Source of the DNA: Mariprofundaceae bacterium
Lineage (GTDB): Bacteria > Pseudomonadota > Zetaproteobacteria > Mariprofundales > Mariprofundaceae
Direction: 5' to 3'
NCBI GenBank assembly: GCA_030950925.1
Contig: JAUZQO010000001.1
Coordinates: 1-64,000 of the forward strand
Length of the DNA: 64,000 bases
Below the pieces are notes generated by a model. It ran no database searches, was not told where the DNA came from, and was given only the letters and a program-made list of their open reading frames with translations. Positions 52,984 through 62,907 of this stretch are shown here, piece after piece. The stretch's first letter is position 1. Every line of letters begins with the position of its first letter. A program made the position numbers and the translations under genes.

Positions 52984-54141
52984 TTAAGATGTTTTCTTAT
53001 TGTTCCGATTAACAAGCATACCCATACGTCGCAAGAAATGTTGGCTGGCTTGAAATAGCGCAGCCGCCAACTGCCTCTGATAACGCGATGTTCTCAATTT
53101 ACGTTCTTGCTTAGGGTTGGAGATAAAATCAACCTCTACCAACACACTGGGTATTTCCAGCGCACCCAGCACCACAAAGCGCGCCCGTTTGGGTACCTCA
53201 TATTTAACCTTACCAATTTTCTTTAAAGATGCGATCATCGTTTCCGCCAAAATTTGCGAGCTATTCAAGCTGTCACGCTTCGCCATATCACCCAAAATAT
53301 TACGCACCATTGGATCTTCGACTTCACTGTGTGCGTGGTGTACTCCACCCATTTCATCAGCAGCATTTTCCTTGGCCGCCAAAGCAATGGCAACGCGGTC
53401 AGGGGTGGCTCCACGTTCCGCCAAAGTATATACACTGGAGCCTTTTACACTCCGCTCTCTCACCGCATCCGCGTGAATACTAATCATCACATCAGCATGC
53501 GCCTGACGCACCAAACGAACACGTTTTTTTAAGGGTACAAAATAATCATTCTTTCGTGTCAACACAGCACGCATCCCATGTTGCTTGTTTAACATCGCCA
53601 CCAATTTCTTGGCAATCGCCAAAGTCACTTTCTTTTCCTGCAAACCATGCGGACCAATGGCACCTGGATCCTCGCCACCATGCCCTGCATCCACCGCAAT
53701 AACCAGTTCATGCTGGTGTGAATGAGCAGCCTTGACTTCATGACTTCCTGATTGGCGTATCAAATCAACCACCAAACGCGATGGCTTGCCCTGCATTTTT
53801 TTTAATAAAAATGAGCGCATACCCAAACCTTTACGATTTAAGTCCAACACCACACGCAACACGCCTTTATGCATGCCATGCCGCACACTTTTCACCACAG
53901 GGTTGGGCAACGCAATCTTCATGGCATGCTTGCGCCATTGGCTATGCTGCATATCAATCACCACACGCTCTGGCTTGTGCATACGAAAAATAGTGTAGGT
54001 CACGCTGCGACTTAGCTCAAAAACAACACGGCTTTTTTCTGCTGTATTCGATATTCGTACAGTCGTCACACTTGCTGCCCATAACGGCACTGGTAGCATC
54101 AAGGTTGCCAGAAGTAACAATATACCACCCATATATCTCAT
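52984..54141 (-). CDS. N-acetylmuramoyl-L-alanine amidase (AmiC type) with AMIN domain
   Basis: The 385-aa secreted protein has a signal peptide (ending PVPLWAA), an AMIN domain (residues about 24-125, VTTVRISNTAEKSRVVFEL) that targets septum or envelope, and an Amidase_3 domain with zinc ligands in DAGHGGEDPGAIG and ISIHADA and the catalytic Glu in VLVEVDFISN. It cuts the peptide from muramic acid. Its ATG overlaps the preceding ligase stop (ATGA). Confidence 0.92.
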   Translation of the reverse strand: MRYMGGILLLLATLMLPVPLWAASVTTVRISNTAEKSRVVFELSRSVTYTIFRMHKPERVVIDMQHSQWRKHAMKIALPNPVVKSVRHGMHKGVLRVVLDLNRKGLGMRSFLLKKMQGKPSRLVVDLIRQSGSHEVKAAHSHQHELVIAVDAGHGGEDPGAIGPHGLQEKKVTLAIAKKLVAMLNKQHGMRAVLTRKNDYFVPLKKRVRLVRQAHADVMISIHADAVRERSVKGSSVYTLAERGATPDRVAIALAAKENAADEMGGVHHAHSEVEDPMVRNILGDMAKRDSLNSSQILAETMIASLKKIGKVKYEVPKRARFVVLGALEIPSVLVEVDFISNPKQERKLRTSRYQRQLAAALFQASQHFLRRMGMLVNRNNKKTS

Positions 54142-55580
54142 CCCATACCCCCCTCTGACATCTTAGCTTCGCGCGCATGTACAACATTTGATTTTTGTTC
54201 CGTGCGGTTTCTTTCTAACAATAACGCTGCCATCAATAAGGCCAATAAAATCATCAACGGCTCCATAATACGAACAATAATAAAGGTATTTGCACCAATT
54301 GCATGGACCAATAAGCCCGCAAAACCACATAATGTACCTAGGGAGGCACCTTTCAGCACTTCGTCCTCAATCTGTTCATAACCTTTGCGTAACAAAACCC
54401 AAATTCGCCGCAAGAGCCAAAGGAACAAAAGCAAACCCACCATCCCCGTTTCCAGCAGTACACGGGGATACTGGGCATCGAGGAAAGGCCCACCTGTCAC
54501 CCCGACACCCAAGAAAGGATGCTCTGGAAAATAACGGGTTATCACATGTTGCCATGAACGCAAACGTTCTGTGGTTGATGTATCAATCTTCACGCCACCC
54601 ACCGCAAGCTGACCTTGCTGATGGGCTTGGTTAAACGTAAACATGACACGGTTGATCACACTCTCTGGTAAAACAAATGGTAATAATGAAGATCCTACTA
54701 GGCAGGAAATAATTAAAAATCGTTTCTTTTTTGAAATCATTAAAAACACAAAAATAGCCACCACAAACGACAAGTAAGAACTTCGTGACTCTGTGAAAGC
54801 CAATGGAACCAACATAATCCCCATCGAAATCAACAACCAATACCAGCGCCGACCCCTTGGCGTATGTAAAAATATACCCAAAGTCACTGAAAACATCAGC
54901 ACCAAATATCCACCAAAGGTATTCGGTTCTCCCATTTCTCCCTCAAAAGGTGCGGAAACACGACCACCACCTGGAATTTGAGCAATACCCGCTAAACTGG
55001 CAATCACACAAGTGATTAACATCAGCCATAAAAATCGTTTGATGCTATCTTCATCACCCAAATGGTTGATAACCATAAAGAACAAGACAAAATATTCGAG
55101 ATATTTGATGACAAAAAACAAGCCATACATCCCAACTTTTCCTGAAAACATCGCCAACAATGTTGAAAAAAAAGTGACAAACCAGTACCACATCATAGGT
55201 TGGTTGATCGGTGTTTCTCGTACAATACCCACCTCTTTTCTCAATGCCATGCGAAACATCCATGTCAAACAGACCAATGTGAGTAGGATGTCATCCAGCC
55301 TCAAGGTCACGCCTCGAGATTCCGTCGTATCCACTTTACCCATAGCCAAATCGGCTTCACTATGCCCACCAAAGGTCAATTCTGGCGACAATAACGTGGA
55401 TAAAACAAGTAGATATAGTGTCAACTCGACACTGGTAAATGAGACCACAAGCATCATGGCAGCACCCAATAACATCATCGGTCCTTTCACCAAACTTGGA
55501 TCAAACATATAAGCTGCTGCCAACAATAAAATACTGAGCAGTAGTGTCAGCACCACCACAGGTGGAAAAGGTACCTTCAT
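54138..55580 (-). CDS. O-antigen ligase/polymerase-family membrane protein
   Basis: The 480-aa protein has about twelve membrane helices and a large periplasmic loop (residues about 320-385) ending HPFLGVGVTGGPFL, the mark of the Wzy/WaaL superfamily; FTESRSSYLSFVVA and GEPNTFGGYLVL are also typical. In an operon with Wza- and Wzz-type proteins it is more likely an exopolysaccharide polymerase than an LPS ligase. Confidence 0.85.
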   Translation of the reverse strand: MKVPFPPVVVLTLLLSILLLAAAYMFDPSLVKGPMMLLGAAMMLVVSFTSVELTLYLLVLSTLLSPELTFGGHSEADLAMGKVDTTESRGVTLRLDDILLTLVCLTWMFRMALRKEVGIVRETPINQPMMWYWFVTFFSTLLAMFSGKVGMYGLFFVIKYLEYFVLFFMVINHLGDEDSIKRFLWLMLITCVIASLAGIAQIPGGGRVSAPFEGEMGEPNTFGGYLVLMFSVTLGIFLHTPRGRRWYWLLISMGIMLVPLAFTESRSSYLSFVVAIFVFLMISKKKRFLIISCLVGSSLLPFVLPESVINRVMFTFNQAHQQGQLAVGGVKIDTSTTERLRSWQHVITRYFPEHPFLGVGVTGGPFLDAQYPRVLLETGMVGLLLFLWLLRRIWVLLRKGYEQIEDEVLKGASLGTLCGFAGLLVHAIGANTFIIVRIMEPLMILLALLMAALLLERNRTEQKSNVVHAREAKMSEGGMG

Positions 55581-55591
55581 CGTTCCTAGGC

Positions 55592-55789
55592 TCAGTTCTC
55601 ACTCCCCGACTTTATTCGATGCGTATCCATCGGTTGGTAACTATCATTGTATGTTGGCTTCATATTTGCAGAACAGCTACGCACCAGCACCAGACCCAAA
55701 GCGATGAGAAAACATAAAATAAACAAGACCAATATTTGGCGAATGGCTGATTTTCGGCGCTGGGAACGCTGATATTTCTTCGGCATCAA
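55592..55789 (-). CDS. 65-aa single-span membrane protein
   Basis: A basic N-terminus (MPKKYQRSQRRKSAIR), one membrane helix (ILVLFILCFLIALGLVLV) ending in RSCSAN, and a polar tail. Starts within the stop region of the autokinase gene (ATGA overlap). Unknown; possibly an accessory of the Wzz/Wzy complex. Confidence 0.7.
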   Translation of the reverse strand: MMPKKYQRSQRRKSAIRQILVLFILCFLIALGLVLVRSCSANMKPTYNDSYQPMDTHRIKSGSEN

Positions 55790-58074
55790 TCATCCCCTTT
55801 ATGCAATATTTTTGACAGCATCATCCATACATTTCGACCCCATTGCTTCACCTTCGATTGATAGCGAAGCCAAATACTGCGCTGTCCTTGTTCATGCTCA
55901 CCATAAGCATAAGCATAGTAACGATCCATTTTATAGGTCGCATAATCGGGCGATAAATCACCTCGCACACCATTCAACACAACACCCAGTACACTTCCAC
56001 CCACATTCTCAATATTCATTTTCACACGTTTGAGTGCCCCACGCACCACAGAGCCAATATGATAGACGAGCAACACACCATCCACTTTTGAGGCAATCAC
56101 CGTAGCATCGGTGGTATGTAACAATGGCGGCATATCAATAATCACCATATCATATTCTTCACGTGCTTCATTTAAAATCGTATCCATCATAGGAGAACCA
56201 AGCAAGTCAGGCGGGTTAGCATTCACATGACCACATGCCAGAATATCCAATTGATCCAAACCAGGTGTCATCAATGCTTGATCAATGCCCATATCACCCA
56301 ACATCACATCTGAAAAACGATTGGTGGCTTCTTGCCAACTTAATTGCCCCAACAAGGCTTCACTTAACCCTGGCACACGCTTTAAACCAAAGGTATGATG
56401 CTGCATGGGTTTGCGTAAATCAGCATCAATCAATAAGACACGTGCGCCTTGCTGTGCAACCACCACACTTAAATTGGCCGCAATCGTACTTTTCCCTTCT
56501 TTCACGGTTGAGCTGGTCACCAAAATCACCCGCTGATGCCCTGTTTGGGAAAATAACAAATTGGTACGTAAGCTGCGATACGCCTCGGCAATCGTCGAGG
56601 GCGGTGAAAAATGACTCACCAAACGCAACTGCCGCTCCAATGCCCCACCACTGGTCATCAAGCCTTCCACACCTGAAAATAACTCAATGGCTTCATCATG
56701 CGCAATATGTGGCACAAAACCAATCACAGGTACATCAAGAAAAGCCTCCACTTCTTCAATCGTACCCACCGAACTATCCATGGATTCAAGCACCAAAGAA
56801 ACGACCAAACCCAGTACCAGACCAAGAATCATACCCGCTATTGCAGTTTGAGAAATTTTAACAGGATTGATGCGAGCTCTGGATACCATCGCAGGGCGAA
56901 CCAAAGAGACTTCTTGAATCTTTTCCGACTCTTTAATCAACACCTCTTGATACTTTTTCTCCAACATCGAAAACAATTCTTCATTGGTTTTCACGCTGCG
57001 CTCCAAACGCATGAGATCCAACCCTTCCCCTGGCACACCCTCATATTTTTTTTTGGTTGATACAATACTATCTTGAATATCTTGAATACGTTGCTGTGTT
57101 AACTCCAATTGCTTGGCAAGCTCATCCAGCATACTGGATAAAATATCTTTGGCTTGTAGCCGTAACTCTTGAATTTGAGGGTGTTCATCGGTGTAATTGG
57201 TTGAGAGTTCCGTATGTTTTAGAGCCATTTCAACCAAGCGTTTGTTCAACTCATCAAAGTACGCACTCACATTCCCTGAAACAGACACCGCCTTATAATC
57301 CCATTCACCCTGACCAACACGAAGGTTCAGCTGTTTTAAGGCAAATTTTAAATCATTCAAATGGGCCGTCGATTGGCGATATTCTTGATCCAAATCACCA
57401 ATAATTCGGGACATCACCGTACTATTCATACTGGATGCAGTTAAATGATGCTTTTGTCGATAATTTCTCGCCGATTCTTCAGCATTTCTCAAGCGATCCC
57501 CAACCACCACCAATTGCTGTTCAATAAACTTCTTCGCTTCAAAGACTTTTTTATTTTTGTCTTCAATATTAAAAGTTTGAAACTCATCGGCCACAGCTTG
57601 AGCCAAATCCCGAGCATATACGGCACTCACCGACGTTACCGAAATTTGAATAATGCCTGTATCTTCATCTTGTAAGGCGCTCACACTGTCTTTCAAATCC
57701 AAGACATCATCCACATAGTCCGCATTGGCACGAATCTCTTCACTGGTCAATGTTTTCGGAATCATGCCGATACGTTGCGCAACCCGCTCCATCAAAGCAT
57801 ACGATTGCAACAACACCAACTGTGTTTTCATGTCATTCAATCTTTGACGAGAATTACCACCTGCAAAAAATGCCGCAACATCTAAAGTCGGTTCAATTTT
57901 GATGGATGCGCTGGAACTATACAACGCTGGCGGTTGATTCATCCATGTAAACAATGCACTAAACACAGCAATGGATAAAGAACAAAATATAATAATCCAA
58001 CGTCGGCGTAGAATAACCTGCCAGTATTCTTCAAGGTTTAACTCATAACTTTGTGCGGTGTTAATTTGAGCCAT
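55786..58074 (-). CDS. Polysaccharide chain-length regulator fused to tyrosine autokinase (Wzz/BY-kinase)
   Basis: The 762-aa protein has a Wzz domain between two membrane helices (about residues 30-50 and 415-440), with coiled coils in between and a GNVR-like segment, then a cytoplasmic BY-kinase with Walker A SSTVKEGKST, Walker A' LLIDADLRKP and Walker B MVIIDMPP, and a C-terminal Tyr cluster (YKMDRYYAYAYGE) for autophosphorylation. It controls polymer length and export through the Wza-type partner, whose stop it overlaps (TAATG). Confidence 0.93.
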   Translation of the reverse strand: MAQINTAQSYELNLEEYWQVILRRRWIIIFCSLSIAVFSALFTWMNQPPALYSSSASIKIEPTLDVAAFFAGGNSRQRLNDMKTQLVLLQSYALMERVAQRIGMIPKTLTSEEIRANADYVDDVLDLKDSVSALQDEDTGIIQISVTSVSAVYARDLAQAVADEFQTFNIEDKNKKVFEAKKFIEQQLVVVGDRLRNAEESARNYRQKHHLTASSMNSTVMSRIIGDLDQEYRQSTAHLNDLKFALKQLNLRVGQGEWDYKAVSVSGNVSAYFDELNKRLVEMALKHTELSTNYTDEHPQIQELRLQAKDILSSMLDELAKQLELTQQRIQDIQDSIVSTKKKYEGVPGEGLDLMRLERSVKTNEELFSMLEKKYQEVLIKESEKIQEVSLVRPAMVSRARINPVKISQTAIAGMILGLVLGLVVSLVLESMDSSVGTIEEVEAFLDVPVIGFVPHIAHDEAIELFSGVEGLMTSGGALERQLRLVSHFSPPSTIAEAYRSLRTNLLFSQTGHQRVILVTSSTVKEGKSTIAANLSVVVAQQGARVLLIDADLRKPMQHHTFGLKRVPGLSEALLGQLSWQEATNRFSDVMLGDMGIDQALMTPGLDQLDILACGHVNANPPDLLGSPMMDTILNEAREEYDMVIIDMPPLLHTTDATVIASKVDGVLLVYHIGSVVRGALKRVKMNIENVGGSVLGVVLNGVRGDLSPDYATYKMDRYYAYAYGEHEQGQRSIWLRYQSKVKQWGRNVWMMLSKILHKGDD

Positions 58075-60701
58075 TAAGGTTTACCTGTTTTCACAAGGTT
58101 CGATAAAGTTTGAAAACTTTGAATAACATACGAAGGCTGTGCCAATAAACTAAATGTAGGCAACAAATCTCTGATAAAAACATTCCAATTCACCATTCTG
58201 CGTGCTGGAATTAAAATCACATCTTTATCGCGTAAACTTAAATTTTGTGATAAATCACCCTTTTCCAAAAAACGGGTGAAGTTGATGGGTAAAATAAGTG
58301 GTTTATCACGATTGGCTCGCAACACGCGAATATCCGATAAATAAGCACCCGCTGTACTGCCGCCACTTTTGGATAACGCCTCTAAAAAATTTATATCCCC
58401 CACAAACTCAACAATACCAGGTTTCCTGACTGCTCCCAATACAAAAACGCGTCGTTTGGATTGTGCCAATGAAGGCACAAAAATAGTATCACCATCATCC
58501 AACACTGCATTTTCTTTCCAATCGCCCTGCTTAATCGCTTTATCCAGATTGAGAACCACCGTTTTACCATCACGCAAAATTTGCACCTTGGTTAAATCCG
58601 CATCTTTTCCAGGTCCTCCTGCTCTTGAAAGAAAATTCACCAACGTTTCTTTACCTTTTAGAAAGTAAGTGCCAGGACCTGTGGGTTGACGTGTCAAATT
58701 TTGAACTTCACCAAAAATACTCACAACTTTACTTCGCGCTTTCAAAACCATGACATCCACACGTGGCTTACGTTCAAATCTTTTTAGAACTTCCGTCACA
58801 TTGGTATCCACTTCCCGTGGTGTCAGGCCAGCAACTTTTAAAGCAGCTTGATAGGGTAACGATACTGTCCCATCCACTTGCACCGTAACTTTGTATTCCT
58901 TGCTTTTGGCACCCTGCCAAAAAGTAATGGATAATTGATCACCATTGCCAATCCGATATTCAGGCGAGCCATCAATCGTGCGAAACACTTTATTTTCATC
59001 CACATGAAACAAATCACTCTGCTGTTCACCATGTTGCGATTGGGGCAAACGAACCTGATGAATCCGATAAGCTTGAATAGACACACTTCGATTCTCTTTC
59101 AAGACCTCAGGCGAATCACCCTGACGCAATGGATGATCAGCACCTAAAACTTGAATCGAAGCTGCCGCCAAGGGGACACCTTGCGTATGCAACCACCCCA
59201 CCACAGATTCAGCACGCGCTTGCGACAATGCTCGGTTATTTGGATAGACCTCCGAATGAATAGGGCGAATATCAGCACGCCCTGCCAATTCAAAGTGTAA
59301 ACCTGACATATCACCCAGTTCTTTTTCCCATGCTCTCAAATCATCCAATGCCATGACATTGAGTTTCGCCTGCCCTGAATCAAAGAAAATAATATGTTTA
59401 CCGCCTGTTTTTTTACCTTGAAAGGTTTTAACAGGTTGCCGCTTTACTTTTTTCGACGACCAAACTTCGGCACCACCATCGGCTCGAACGGCAGCAATCG
59501 CCAAAGTGCCATCATGACGCATATCACCCAAATCTAAGCCATAATAAACGCCATAATTGGGAACCCATCCTTTTTGTTGCGAAAACGAACCAAAACGCCA
59601 ATGCCATACGCCCAAGCCTTGCCCATCACGGGATGAAGCAAACAATTCCCTAGACCCATTACCATCAAAATCACCGACACGAACATCGCCCCAAGTTCCT
59701 GTAGATGTGATGGACTCACGTTCCCAATCACCATGATTTCCAAGCCACAAACGGATGCCTTGTTGATAAAGACCTGCAACAATATCCAACTGACCATCCC
59801 CATTCACATCCGCAACGGTCACACTTTCTGCATCTGCTTCTGCAGGCAGAGCTTTGGGCTCCCAGCGTGCTGCTCCATCACCATACCAAATCTGCACACC
59901 ACCCGACTGTATCCAATCTTGACTGCCATCGACCGAGGCTCCCAAACCGCCACGACGTGATGCAATAATATCCATATCACCATCAGCGTTCACATCCGCA
60001 ACCGTCACACCTGTAAAATAACCCGACACCATAGGGCCCACTGAATCAAACCAGCCACCTCGCGCATCATTCAGTAACACATAGATTCCACCATCTTTTT
60101 CGCTATCAAATTTTGCAGCAACGATATCCAACCAGCCGTCATGGTTAAGATCCACCAAAGATACTGCATGGAATAAACCTGAAATCACGGGGGATGCCAA
60201 CAATGTCCAAGTATGTTTTTTGCCATTCATTTCCCAAATTTGCAAGCCTTTTTGATCGCCTTCACCACCAATTAACACATCAAGTTGCCCATTATCATTC
60301 ACATCACCCACCGCAAAATCTCGCGGTTGCATGCTACTCATGGGACCATCTTCAACCCGCCAATGCCCTGCACCATCACCCCACTCGACATGAAAGCTAT
60401 CCACAGATTTACGCCCACCCACCAACAAATCCAAAAAACCATCTTGATTCAAATCAGTCCACTGAATGGCGCGTGATTCTACAATCCGCTGGGGACCAAT
60501 ATTATGCAACTGATAATGAGGCAAGCTCACATCATGGGGTGAAAGTGACATGGTCGGCATTGGAACCACAGTACGGCACCCTGAAGAGCTTAGCATCCCC
60601 AGCAATAACAATAGCGTTAGTATATATCGCATAAAACCATTCATACCATGCACTAGAATGCTTTCCATCAACTTTGTCAAATTCATCACTTTATTTTTCA
60701 T
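58074..60701 (-). CDS. FG-GAP beta-propeller / OmpA / Wza-type polysaccharide export fusion lipoprotein
   Basis: This 875-aa frame combines three modules. A lipoprotein signal (lipobox SSSGC, Cys near residue 42) suggests a real start at one of the in-frame ATGs 60686-60632. Residues about 75-410 hold six or seven FG-GAP/VCBS-type repeats with Ca-binding loops (DLNQDGFLD, DVNDNGQLD, DLNHDGWLD, DVNADGDMD, DVNGDGQLD, DFDGNGS). Residues about 436-545 form an OmpA-like peptidoglycan-binding domain (FFDSGQAKL, NNRALSQARAESV). Residues 580-875 are a polysaccharide export domain (YRIGNGDQLSITFW) with two SLBB-like segments (VSIFGEVQN, VFVLGAVRKPG) and a C-terminal amphipathic helix. It should be the outer-membrane exit of the exopolysaccharide, anchored to the wall and with a periplasmic or surface propeller. 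Confidence 0.88.
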   Translation of the reverse strand: MKNKVMNLTKLMESILVHGMNGFMRYILTLLLLLGMLSSSGCRTVVPMPTMSLSPHDVSLPHYQLHNIGPQRIVESRAIQWTDLNQDGFLDLLVGGRKSVDSFHVEWGDGAGHWRVEDGPMSSMQPRDFAVGDVNDNGQLDVLIGGEGDQKGLQIWEMNGKKHTWTLLASPVISGLFHAVSLVDLNHDGWLDIVAAKFDSEKDGGIYVLLNDARGGWFDSVGPMVSGYFTGVTVADVNADGDMDIIASRRGGLGASVDGSQDWIQSGGVQIWYGDGAARWEPKALPAEADAESVTVADVNGDGQLDIVAGLYQQGIRLWLGNHGDWERESITSTGTWGDVRVGDFDGNGSRELFASSRDGQGLGVWHWRFGSFSQQKGWVPNYGVYYGLDLGDMRHDGTLAIAAVRADGGAEVWSSKKVKRQPVKTFQGKKTGGKHIIFFDSGQAKLNVMALDDLRAWEKELGDMSGLHFELAGRADIRPIHSEVYPNNRALSQARAESVVGWLHTQGVPLAAASIQVLGADHPLRQGDSPEVLKENRSVSIQAYRIHQVRLPQSQHGEQQSDLFHVDENKVFRTIDGSPEYRIGNGDQLSITFWQGAKSKEYKVTVQVDGTVSLPYQAALKVAGLTPREVDTNVTEVLKRFERKPRVDVMVLKARSKVVSIFGEVQNLTRQPTGPGTYFLKGKETLVNFLSRAGGPGKDADLTKVQILRDGKTVVLNLDKAIKQGDWKENAVLDDGDTIFVPSLAQSKRRVFVLGAVRKPGIVEFVGDINFLEALSKSGGSTAGAYLSDIRVLRANRDKPLILPINFTRFLEKGDLSQNLSLRDKDVILIPARRMVNWNVFIRDLLPTFSLLAQPSYVIQSFQTLSNLVKTGKP

Positions 60702-60893: not shown

Positions 60894-61694
60894 ATGTACC
60901 TTAAACATTGGAATCTAAGTCAATTTCCTTTTGAAAATGTTCCCAATGAACATTTTTTCTTTGAATCACAAGCTCATCGTATTTTATTGGAAGATTTACA
61001 TGATGCAATTATCCGTCAAAAAGGTGCCATTGCACTCACGGGTGGCATTGGCTGCGGCAAATCTACCATCACCCAGCGTGTCTTACTTGCCCTTCCTGAA
61101 GACCGTTTCGATATTGCCCTCATTACCTATTCACGACTCACACCTGTTGAAATGCTGCTGGAGGTTTGTCAGCAACTGGGTATTGCCACTGAACGACAAG
61201 ATCGAAACAACCTTTTACGTAGCCTACAAGCCCACCTTGCACACAATGCAAAGACAGGAAAACACACAGTTGTATGCATCGATGAAGCTCAAAGTATTCC
61301 ATCTCTGGCAACATTTGAAGAATTACGTCTGTTGCTTAACTTCCAACTGGGTGGACATTTTCTCATGACCTTGGTCTTTGTTGGGCAACCTGAACTACAA
61401 CGTAAAATTGCCAAGCTTCCACAGCTCCAGCAGCGTATCGCCCTAAACTTGAGTATTGGACATATGAGTCCCGAAGATAGCATGCGTTACGTTCTGCATC
61501 GTTTGCGTGCAGCAGGATCCAAGCGACCTATACTGACGCGACAAGCGGTTGTTCTTGTTCACAAACACACCCAAGGCATTCCGCGACGCATCAACCACCT
61601 CATGGATCGCTGCTTATTGATTGGCATGCGTAACCAATGCAAACTCATCAACAGCCAACTTATTTCCGCTGTCATTCAAAGGTATCCATCTTAA
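60894..61694 (+). CDS. ExeA/GspA-type AAA ATPase (EPS-locus type)
   Basis: The 266-aa protein begins MYLKHWNLSQFPFENVPN, the usual start of ExeA-like ATPases including those of exosortase/EPS loci, with Walker A TGGIGCGKST, Walker B TVVCIDEAQSI and a sensor region LVFVGQPELQ. It lacks the C-terminal peptidoglycan-binding part of ExeA. Divergent from the export operon and one base before the HD-like gene, it may couple energy or assembly to polysaccharide export. Confidence 0.85.
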   Translation: MYLKHWNLSQFPFENVPNEHFFFESQAHRILLEDLHDAIIRQKGAIALTGGIGCGKSTITQRVLLALPEDRFDIALITYSRLTPVEMLLEVCQQLGIATERQDRNNLLRSLQAHLAHNAKTGKHTVVCIDEAQSIPSLATFEELRLLLNFQLGGHFLMTLVFVGQPELQRKIAKLPQLQQRIALNLSIGHMSPEDSMRYVLHRLRAAGSKRPILTRQAVVLVHKHTQGIPRRINHLMDRCLLIGMRNQCKLINSQLISAVIQRYPS

Positions 61695-61695
61695 A

Positions 61696-62907
61696 ATGAC
61701 CAAATACATTGATTTACTACGCGCCCACCGCCAATCATCAAACCCAAACGCCCCTGCCCCTTTGCTCACACCCAACCGCGAAGACATCAATCTTAATCTA
61801 CCCGATGAAACATGCGATGATGTCATCATCGAAACGCCCTTGCTCAACCATGAGTTCAAAGACTTGATTGACGAAGAAAGCTTGAATCCAAGTGCCAAAG
61901 CAGCCCTTTCCAAGCCAAGCACGCATGTTTCGACCCACACAGAAGATGAAGATCAAGCCAATCGCTTCAAAAATACACCATGGTTACGCCAAGGCATTCG
62001 TCATATCCAATCTATTTTTGAACTCGCCGAACAAAATGATCCGTGTGATATTTCAGCTTTATCCCAGCATATTCAACATTTATTATCCCAACTTCAAAAC
62101 GATCATGAACAACAGATTATGGATGCCTTAGAGCTCAATATCTCTCAACAGACCCAACACATCCGAGAACGCCATAGCAGCTTGGGTGGACTGATCCAGA
62201 AGTCTATTCTCATGATGCTTTACACCATCAAAACAGGGCAACGTTTAAAATTATCCATCCATGACTTACACCTTCATACCTTTGCAGCCATGTTACACCA
62301 CATTGGTATGGCGCAAATCCCCAAGCAAATTCGCAACAAGAAAGAGCGACTTACCAAACAAGAACTCAAAGAAATCCATCAGGCTCCTAGGCTTGGATTT
62401 GAATATTTAAAAATATCCAATATTGATGATAACATTATTTTAGATGCCTGTTTGTTCGCCAATGAACGTTATGATGGAAGTGGTGCCACAGGCTTATCGG
62501 GATCAAACATTGCATGGAGTGCTCGGCTCACGGGCGTACTTTCCATGTTTGAGGCATTGATTCACTACCGCCCTTATCGCAACCGCCTATTACCTCGGGA
62601 TGCCATCCGTGAAATGGTCAAAAACCATAAGAAATCCTTTGACCCTGATATGCTGAAAGCGTTGATTGAATCCATTTCATTGTACCCCATCGGCACTTAT
62701 AGCCAACTCAACACAGGTGAAATTGGTTTGGTCACCCATATTCACCCCTATCGACCTTTACGCCCTGTGGTTGAAATTCGCATGGATCGACATGGCAACC
62801 CCATTCCACCACGCAAAATCGATTTAACCACCCAACCCAACCTCACCGTAGAACGCTGCATGTACGAAGAAACAACCTTGGCGTTATCCAACAAGCATCA
62901 CGAATAA
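61696..62907 (+). CDS. Degenerate HD-GYP-like protein
   Basis: The 403-aa protein starts at ATG 61696, one base after the ATPase stop. Its first 110 residues are polar and probably disordered. From about residue 170 it follows the HD-GYP layout, but the metal-binding HDIGK is LHHIGMAQIPKQI and the HHE...GYP motif is FANERYDGSGATGL, so key metal ligands (Asp of HD, His-His) are absent. It should not be an active phosphodiesterase and may be a cyclic di-GMP sensor or scaffold for the export system. Confidence 0.82.
   Translation: MTKYIDLLRAHRQSSNPNAPAPLLTPNREDINLNLPDETCDDVIIETPLLNHEFKDLIDEESLNPSAKAALSKPSTHVSTHTEDEDQANRFKNTPWLRQGIRHIQSIFELAEQNDPCDISALSQHIQHLLSQLQNDHEQQIMDALELNISQQTQHIRERHSSLGGLIQKSILMMLYTIKTGQRLKLSIHDLHLHTFAAMLHHIGMAQIPKQIRNKKERLTKQELKEIHQAPRLGFEYLKISNIDDNIILDACLFANERYDGSGATGLSGSNIAWSARLTGVLSMFEALIHYRPYRNRLLPRDAIREMVKNHKKSFDPDMLKALIESISLYPIGTYSQLNTGEIGLVTHIHPYRPLRPVVEIRMDRHGNPIPPRKIDLTTQPNLTVERCMYEETTLALSNKHHE

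Follow-up and report, generated by a model that had tools for sequence, protein, structure and literature searches.

A Wza-type exporter joined in one reading frame to an FG-GAP propeller and an OmpA/MotB-type domain in Zetaproteobacteria

Results

The window, a stretch of 64,000 nucleotides from a Mariprofundaceae bacterium, holds on its minus strand a single uninterrupted open reading frame of 875 amino acids (60701 to 58074), in which Pfam and profile comparison place a lipoprotein signal, an FG-GAP propeller, an OmpA/MotB-type domain and a complete Wza, in that order. An earlier note, made from the sequence letters, had described a lipobox, propeller loops, an OmpA-like domain and a Wza-type region in one frame, and the ORF, the Pfam matches and a family profile confirm this description. 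The fusion is present in 39 of 78 Zetaproteobacteria genomes, roughly half of the species sequenced in this class. We found the arrangement described nowhere in the literature covered, and it probably equips the export channel with a cell-wall anchor and a periplasmic docking collar of its own.

Integrity and start of the frame

In the Pfam scan the 875-residue protein matched FG-GAP_3 (8.4e-31, six stretches), Poly_export (5.7e-17) and SLBB_2 (5.1e-21, two stretches). The note had named two ways in which its reading could fail, namely spurious propeller or OmpA matches and a frameshift joining two genes. Neither was encountered: the FG-GAP_3 match is strong, the OmpA match is firm across the family, and many independent relatives have the same domain order in a single frame. 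Near-full-length frames of about 850-900 residues occur in more than 20 independent assemblies, one of them outside the class, and the single-frame relatives show 37-97% identity. An assembly or frameshift artefact that joined separate genes is refuted by these assemblies, and we give it practically no chance of being correct.

The lipoprotein signal peptide (residues 20-42; 60576..60644, minus strand) was called from its lipobox, LSSSGC, and from the alignment rather than by SignalP. Cys42 is invariant in a 20-member alignment, relatives have LSAC, VSGC, LTSC or LAAC at the equivalent site, and residue +2 after the cysteine is Arg, not Asp. Because most relatives begin at Met20 or Met24, one of these two is probably the true start codon.

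The propeller

Residues 66-417 (59451..60506, minus strand) are predicted by the FG-GAP_3 match, AlphaFold2 and Foldseek to form a seven-bladed FG-GAP/integrin-type beta-propeller. Where the note had counted six or seven DxNxDGxxD loops, we found six, at residues 83, 133, 184, 236, 298 and 344, and a degenerate seventh at about 390. In a 30-copy alignment, blades 1, 3 and 4 keep the first, fifth and last Asp of the loop in all homologues, and blade 5 keeps them in 29-30 of the 30; blade 6 has an unchanged first Asp throughout, while the loop of blade 2 is looser and that of blade 7 degenerate. The loops are of the calcium type found in FG-GAP propellers, and calcium binding itself is predicted. 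Structure prediction, which the note had proposed as a check, returned a confident propeller, with AlphaFold2 giving a run of blade strands in blocks mostly at pLDDT 67-87. Foldseek matched this model to CRTAC1, the LGI1 EPTP domain, integrin alpha-V, aldos-2-ulose dehydratase and the lectin PLL3. The strand pattern, together with the matches to seven-bladed propellers, points to seven four-stranded blades, and the conserved loops and the Pfam match uphold the note's propeller with calcium-type loops. Every fusion copy with a complete N-terminal part has the propeller.

Pfam matches to PliI, BBS7, TcdB and dockerin inside this region were discarded as weak cross-matches to propeller or calcium-loop stretches. 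Three copies (G038 and G039 of family f3, on L049 and L050, and G014) have an insertion of 24-49 residues after residue 322.

The OmpA/MotB-type domain and its natural variants

The propeller is followed by a predicted peptidoglycan-binding domain of the OmpA/MotB type (residues 437-545; 59067..59393, minus strand), which includes D477 and R496. In the window protein the Pfam match (439-538) scores 27.0 bits against a cut-off of 27.2, while PF00691 is matched in 18 of 20 homologues, the best at 1.5e-15, with scores of up to 57.7 bits. Compared with known structures, the family profile matched MotS at 2.8e-13 and Pal, YfiB, MotB and PomB at 1e-11 to 1e-7. Relatives above the cut-off and these PDB matches argue for an OmpA-like fold, and alignment of GRADIRPIHSEVYPNNRALSQARAESV with the MotS stretch GHTD..LSAARA indicates a domain of the MotB/MotS kind. 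In OmpA/MotB domains an Asp and an Arg bind the diaminopimelate of peptidoglycan. We take D477 and R496 to correspond to this pair, and peptidoglycan binding is predicted accordingly.

D477 is kept in 25 of 30 copies. Two of the exceptions, G025 and G096 (genus g4), lack the OmpA domain altogether and retain the propeller and the OPX part; the other three, from Ghiorsea (G064, G067 and G073), have a degenerate OmpA domain. In a tree rooted on G041 and G037 the domain-less pair is nested inside domain-bearing copies, and the degenerate copies from Ghiorsea group in a single, fully supported clade; the placement of the g4 rows is unsettled (p-AU 0.27 for holding g4 together). The simplest reading of these sequences is one loss and one decay. 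The loss and the decay mean that anchoring would not be essential everywhere. The note's claim that the exporter brings its own wall anchor therefore stands as regards a putative peptidoglycan-binding domain with D477 and R496, and falls short in that this domain is missing from G025 and G096 and decayed in a Ghiorsea subclade. Since the propeller was kept where the OmpA domain was lost or decayed, the pattern of conservation suggests that the propeller, not the dispensable anchor, is the essential novelty.

In G013 (L046:12500-14302), the fusion gene and the ATPase gene described below are separated by an additional gene, for a protein of 600 residues that combines a long acidic region with an OmpA domain at its C-terminus.

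The Wza half and class membership

The C-terminal part can be laid over Wza domain by domain. Poly_export (PES, Wza D1) covers residues 579-652 (58746..58967, minus strand; PF02563, 62.1 bits for the protein and 66.8 bits at the DNA level). The first SLBB domain (Wza D2), at about residues 656-745 (58467..58736, minus strand), was recognized from two SLBB/SLBB_2 stretches and the alignment to 2J58, and the second (Wza D3), at about residues 748-832 (58206..58460, minus strand), has its best SLBB_2 stretch at 751-830. The Wza_C (D4) outer-membrane helix region (residues 838-872; 58086..58190, minus strand) places VNWNVFIRDLLPTFSLL over VRWNRVISQLVPTISGV of Wza, and N838, W839, N840, I843 and P848 are invariant in the 20-member alignment. 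The family profile matched Wza (2J58) at 4.7e-36 through residue 345, so that the start of the outer-membrane helix is included. AlphaFold2, given a shallow alignment of the OmpA-Wza half, reached a mean pLDDT of 38; the identity of the OPX half is accordingly read from sequence. The Poly_export, SLBB and Wza_C matches and the 2J58 profile together support the Wza-type exporter proposed in the note.

All 20 homologues show Poly_export followed by SLBB, the order expected of a class 1 OPX protein. For the C-terminal Wza_C helix, the class 1 definition asks that 10 or more of 34 residues be homologous to positions 326-359 of 2J58 (PMC9603273); our alignment, made by sequence rather than by HHpred, extends to 2J58 residue 345 and points to such a helix. 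A lipoprotein signal is present in about 78% of class 1 proteins (PMC9603273), and invariant Cys42 suggests one here. We therefore file the protein, judging by its C-terminal part, as a class 1 OPX whose N-terminal modules are a new variant, and by homology an octameric outer-membrane channel would be expected.

Neighbouring genes

The fusion gene overlaps by one base a gene (55786..58074, minus strand) for a Wzc-type chain-length regulator and tyrosine autokinase of 762 residues, with Wzz, GNVR and AAA_31 matches and TIGR01007 above its cut-off; the two genes adjoin in nearly all genomes examined. Towards its C-terminus this Wzc carries a brief segment that contains Tyr, DRYYAYAYGEHEQ; after it come about 30 further residues (WLRYQSKVKQWGRNVWMMLSKIL), an unusual and perhaps amphipathic extension. 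The third gene of the trio (54138..55580, minus strand) encodes a Wzy_C-family polymerase or ligase of 480 residues (PF04932, 1.5e-11), found in 36 of the 78 genomes of the class, all of them fusion-bearers, and in none without the fusion.

The trio moves as a unit and is kept together in different chromosomal contexts: it lies beside amiC-msbA-DUF374 in several genera, whereas in Ghiorsea, G070 and G041 its neighbours are other housekeeping genes. On a short contig of G038 another ORF, rather than Wzc, was called between the fusion and Wzy_C. A peptidoglycan-opening partnership with the neighbouring AmiC amidase was considered and rejected as not specific. The amidase is a class-wide housekeeping gene and so a bystander: 69 of 78 genomes have it, including those that lack the fusion, and the Ghiorsea trio is located away from it.

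Upstream and divergent (60894-62907) is a pair of genes for an XrtA-associated-type ATPase (TIGR03015-like, below cut-off) and an HD_5 c-di-GMP phosphodiesterase-like protein; the pair adjoins the trio in most genera and is missing where the trio moved in Ghiorsea. In G010 (L091:3875-5308), of the same genus as the window, a recombinase-like ORF stands beside amiC in place of the trio, and the WecA-like gene described below is also missing. No glycosyltransferase genes were seen flanking the trio, and consensus scans of the putative operon for promoters and terminators gave no more sites than shuffled sequence.

Glycan pathway genes elsewhere in the genome

As a partner in glycan initiation, the PF02397 enzyme was rejected, being absent from four fusion-bearing genomes: the window's own and G012, G038 and G041, the latter three 98% complete. 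A second PF00953 enzyme, of the WecA type, was present in all fusion genomes tested and missing from two Mariprofundus-like genomes tested. Across the class, the WecA-like gene occurs in 37 of 78 genomes, 36 of which bear the fusion, at a locus separate from the trio. Of the fusion-bearers, three do not have it, and these genomes are 69-83% complete; conversely, G032 alone has it without the fusion and lacks the amidase too, an exception that may be an assembly gap. Fisher's test for the association gives 3e-17, a figure that overstates the evidence since the genomes, all of one class, are phylogenetically related.

In three genera the WecA-like enzyme is accompanied by DegT, PIG-L and WbqC genes, and in two of the three also by two GT4 genes and an asparagine-synthase-like amidotransferase. 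At L085:11919-16858 the conserved set consists of the WecA-like enzyme, DegT, PIG-L, WbqC and an unknown protein of 483-540 residues, which had no Pfam or NCBIfam match. PF01943 flippases were found in all genomes tested. With Wzc and Wzy_C adjacent to the exporter and a flippase and a WecA-like enzyme in the genome, a dispersed Wzx/Wzy gene set fits, and its parts may serve one polymer.

Distribution

The survey covered a Pseudomonadota sample of 399 genomes and a scan of contigs from close relatives. It answers the note's suggestion to look for the same architecture in other genomes: besides the 39 Zetaproteobacteria, one further carrier turned up in the phylum sample, G041, the single genome of its class there, with 37% identity over the full length. 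Carriers include Ghiorsea MAGs and Zetaproteobacteria bacterium NORP31, which belongs to the window's genus, g1. All genomes of a Mariprofundus-like genus (g9) lack the fusion and Ghiorsea (g8) carries it, the genus names being partly inferred.

This distribution bears on whether the exporter is part of the twisted-stalk machinery of Zetaproteobacteria, an idea that exopolysaccharide export in an iron-oxidizing class might invite. Ghiorsea forms amorphous oxides and its isolates form no stalks (PMC8250860), and the paper on the sfz stalk genes nowhere mentions Wza, OmpA or FG-GAP (PMC8250860). A stalk gene of the sfz kind should be in stalk-formers and absent from stalk-less lineages; with genus names partly inferred, the fusion shows the opposite, being absent from g9 and present in stalk-less Ghiorsea. 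On these grounds we rule out a stalk exporter, a role that we consider hardly credible.

Discussion

Comparison with known systems

Like Wza of E. coli (PDB 2J58), the fusion is a lipoprotein with Poly_export, two SLBB domains, a C-terminal outer-membrane helix and a neighbouring Wzc; unlike it, it has about 500 extra N-terminal residues (propeller and OmpA) and no glycosyltransferase genes beside it. The best NCBIfam match of the OPX part is the XrtA/PEP-CTERM export protein TIGR03027, and a TIGR03015-like ATPase gene lies divergently upstream; however, the 117.1 bits fall below the curated family cut-off of 180, and the model, of 169 positions, lacks the N-terminal modules. The anchors of MotB, TssL, Pal and YfiB share the fold, by profile, and the Asp/Arg pair, but in the fusion the domain sits between propeller and OPX channel and is lost or decayed in some relatives. 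GspB/OutB of type 2 secretion (PMC9239104) likewise ties an outer-membrane pore to peptidoglycan, a likeness of function; it is a separate scaffold protein for a secretin. CRTAC1, LGI1 EPTP and the integrin alpha propellers are also seven-bladed, with FG-GAP calcium loops in the integrin/CRTAC1 type, but they are extracellular animal adhesion or signalling proteins.

The note held that Wza proteins normally have no such N-terminal modules, which agrees with a class 1 OPX median length of 378 residues (PMC9603273). In the same survey Poly_export is accompanied by 1-14 SLBB domains and, in some cases, by GfcC and Wza_C; OmpA, FG-GAP and propellers are not mentioned there (PMC9603273), nor in a further paper (PMC9601211). 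Nothing relevant on FG-GAP or OmpA domains with OPX was found in open-licence full texts, and in that literature we, like the note, found no described system of such architecture.

Proposed mechanism and alternatives

We favour, as a reasonably probable reading, a class 1 OPX protein that exports a polysaccharide of the Wzx/Wzy pathway and has a wall anchor and a propeller collar. Of its parts, the exporter is very probable and the anchor likely; Wzc as the propeller's partner is a guess, with the chances somewhat against it. By analogy with Wza, eight copies would form the channel, with the acylated N-termini in the outer membrane and eight propellers and eight OmpA domains around its periplasmic part. 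The OmpA domains would fix the channel at the level of the peptidoglycan, where Wza and Wzc meet, and the propellers, stiffened by calcium, would form a collar on which Wzc or the emerging polymer could dock. Synthesis of the glycan would be started, probably, by the co-inherited WecA-like phosphoglycosyltransferase encoded elsewhere. Domain order, conservation and the partners given by synteny are read directly from the sequences; the octamer, its insertion in the outer membrane, the binding of peptidoglycan and calcium and the propeller's partner are predictions. Geometrically, eight propellers would seem to fit in a ring around a body the size of Wza, each having about 59 angstroms at a radius of 75 angstroms if approximate Wza dimensions are taken. 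A bolder version, which we hold as possible but doubtful, sees a new structural OPX class, in which the eight calcium-loop propellers are an obligatory periplasmic collar recognizing the cognate polymer or Wzc and the peptidoglycan clamp is an optional built-in part, serving as the wall-anchored, substrate-specific exporter of part of the Zetaproteobacteria and a related lineage.

Alternatively, the propeller might be a periplasmic module akin to a lectin: it would grip the cognate polymer and gate or ratchet the polymer's passage into the channel, and anchoring to the wall would be secondary. No copy whose N-terminal part is complete has the OPX part without the propeller, OmpA being dispensable; as one would expect of a substrate-specific component, the fusion goes with a single Wzy_C gene and a single glycan-initiation gene; and the seven-bladed lectin PLL3 is among the fold matches. 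However, these matches are mainly to protein-binding propellers (CRTAC1, LGI1 and integrins), and no sugar-binding site was identified in the propeller. FG-GAP propellers mostly bind proteins. We regard this alternative as rather unlikely, and rate far lower the possibility, raised in the note among others, that the propeller binds mineral surfaces. A propeller on the cell surface, binding iron oxyhydroxide or other minerals, would couple the exporter to biomineral attachment in a host lineage of iron oxidizers (physiology: PMC8250860); its acidic calcium-type loops could bind metals, and the protein is a lipoprotein. Yet with lipid, propeller, OmpA and Wza D1 following one another in the chain, the propeller would lie between outer membrane and wall-binding domain, so that the N-terminal modules of this Wza-like lipoprotein should be periplasmic, and G041, outside the class, has the same architecture. 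Mineral binding is thus very improbable.

The favoured reading, an exporter with wall anchor and collar, bears on the passage of Wza-type channels through the peptidoglycan and on what keeps them positioned over Wzc; in the paper on the Wza-Wzc structure, peptidoglycan is not mentioned (PMC12881504). The fusion is a natural case of a wall-binding domain and a propeller joined directly to an export channel, and since natural variants with and without the anchor exist, the question of wall anchoring can be tested by comparison. It also gives the iron oxidizers that form no stalks a distinct surface-glycan export system, and the fusion exporter is a candidate for coating their cells or handling iron oxides without stalks.

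The window's own genome also encodes, at the end of a contig (L057), a second, canonical Wza of 387 residues with its own Wzc and a mannose-1-phosphate guanylyltransferase.
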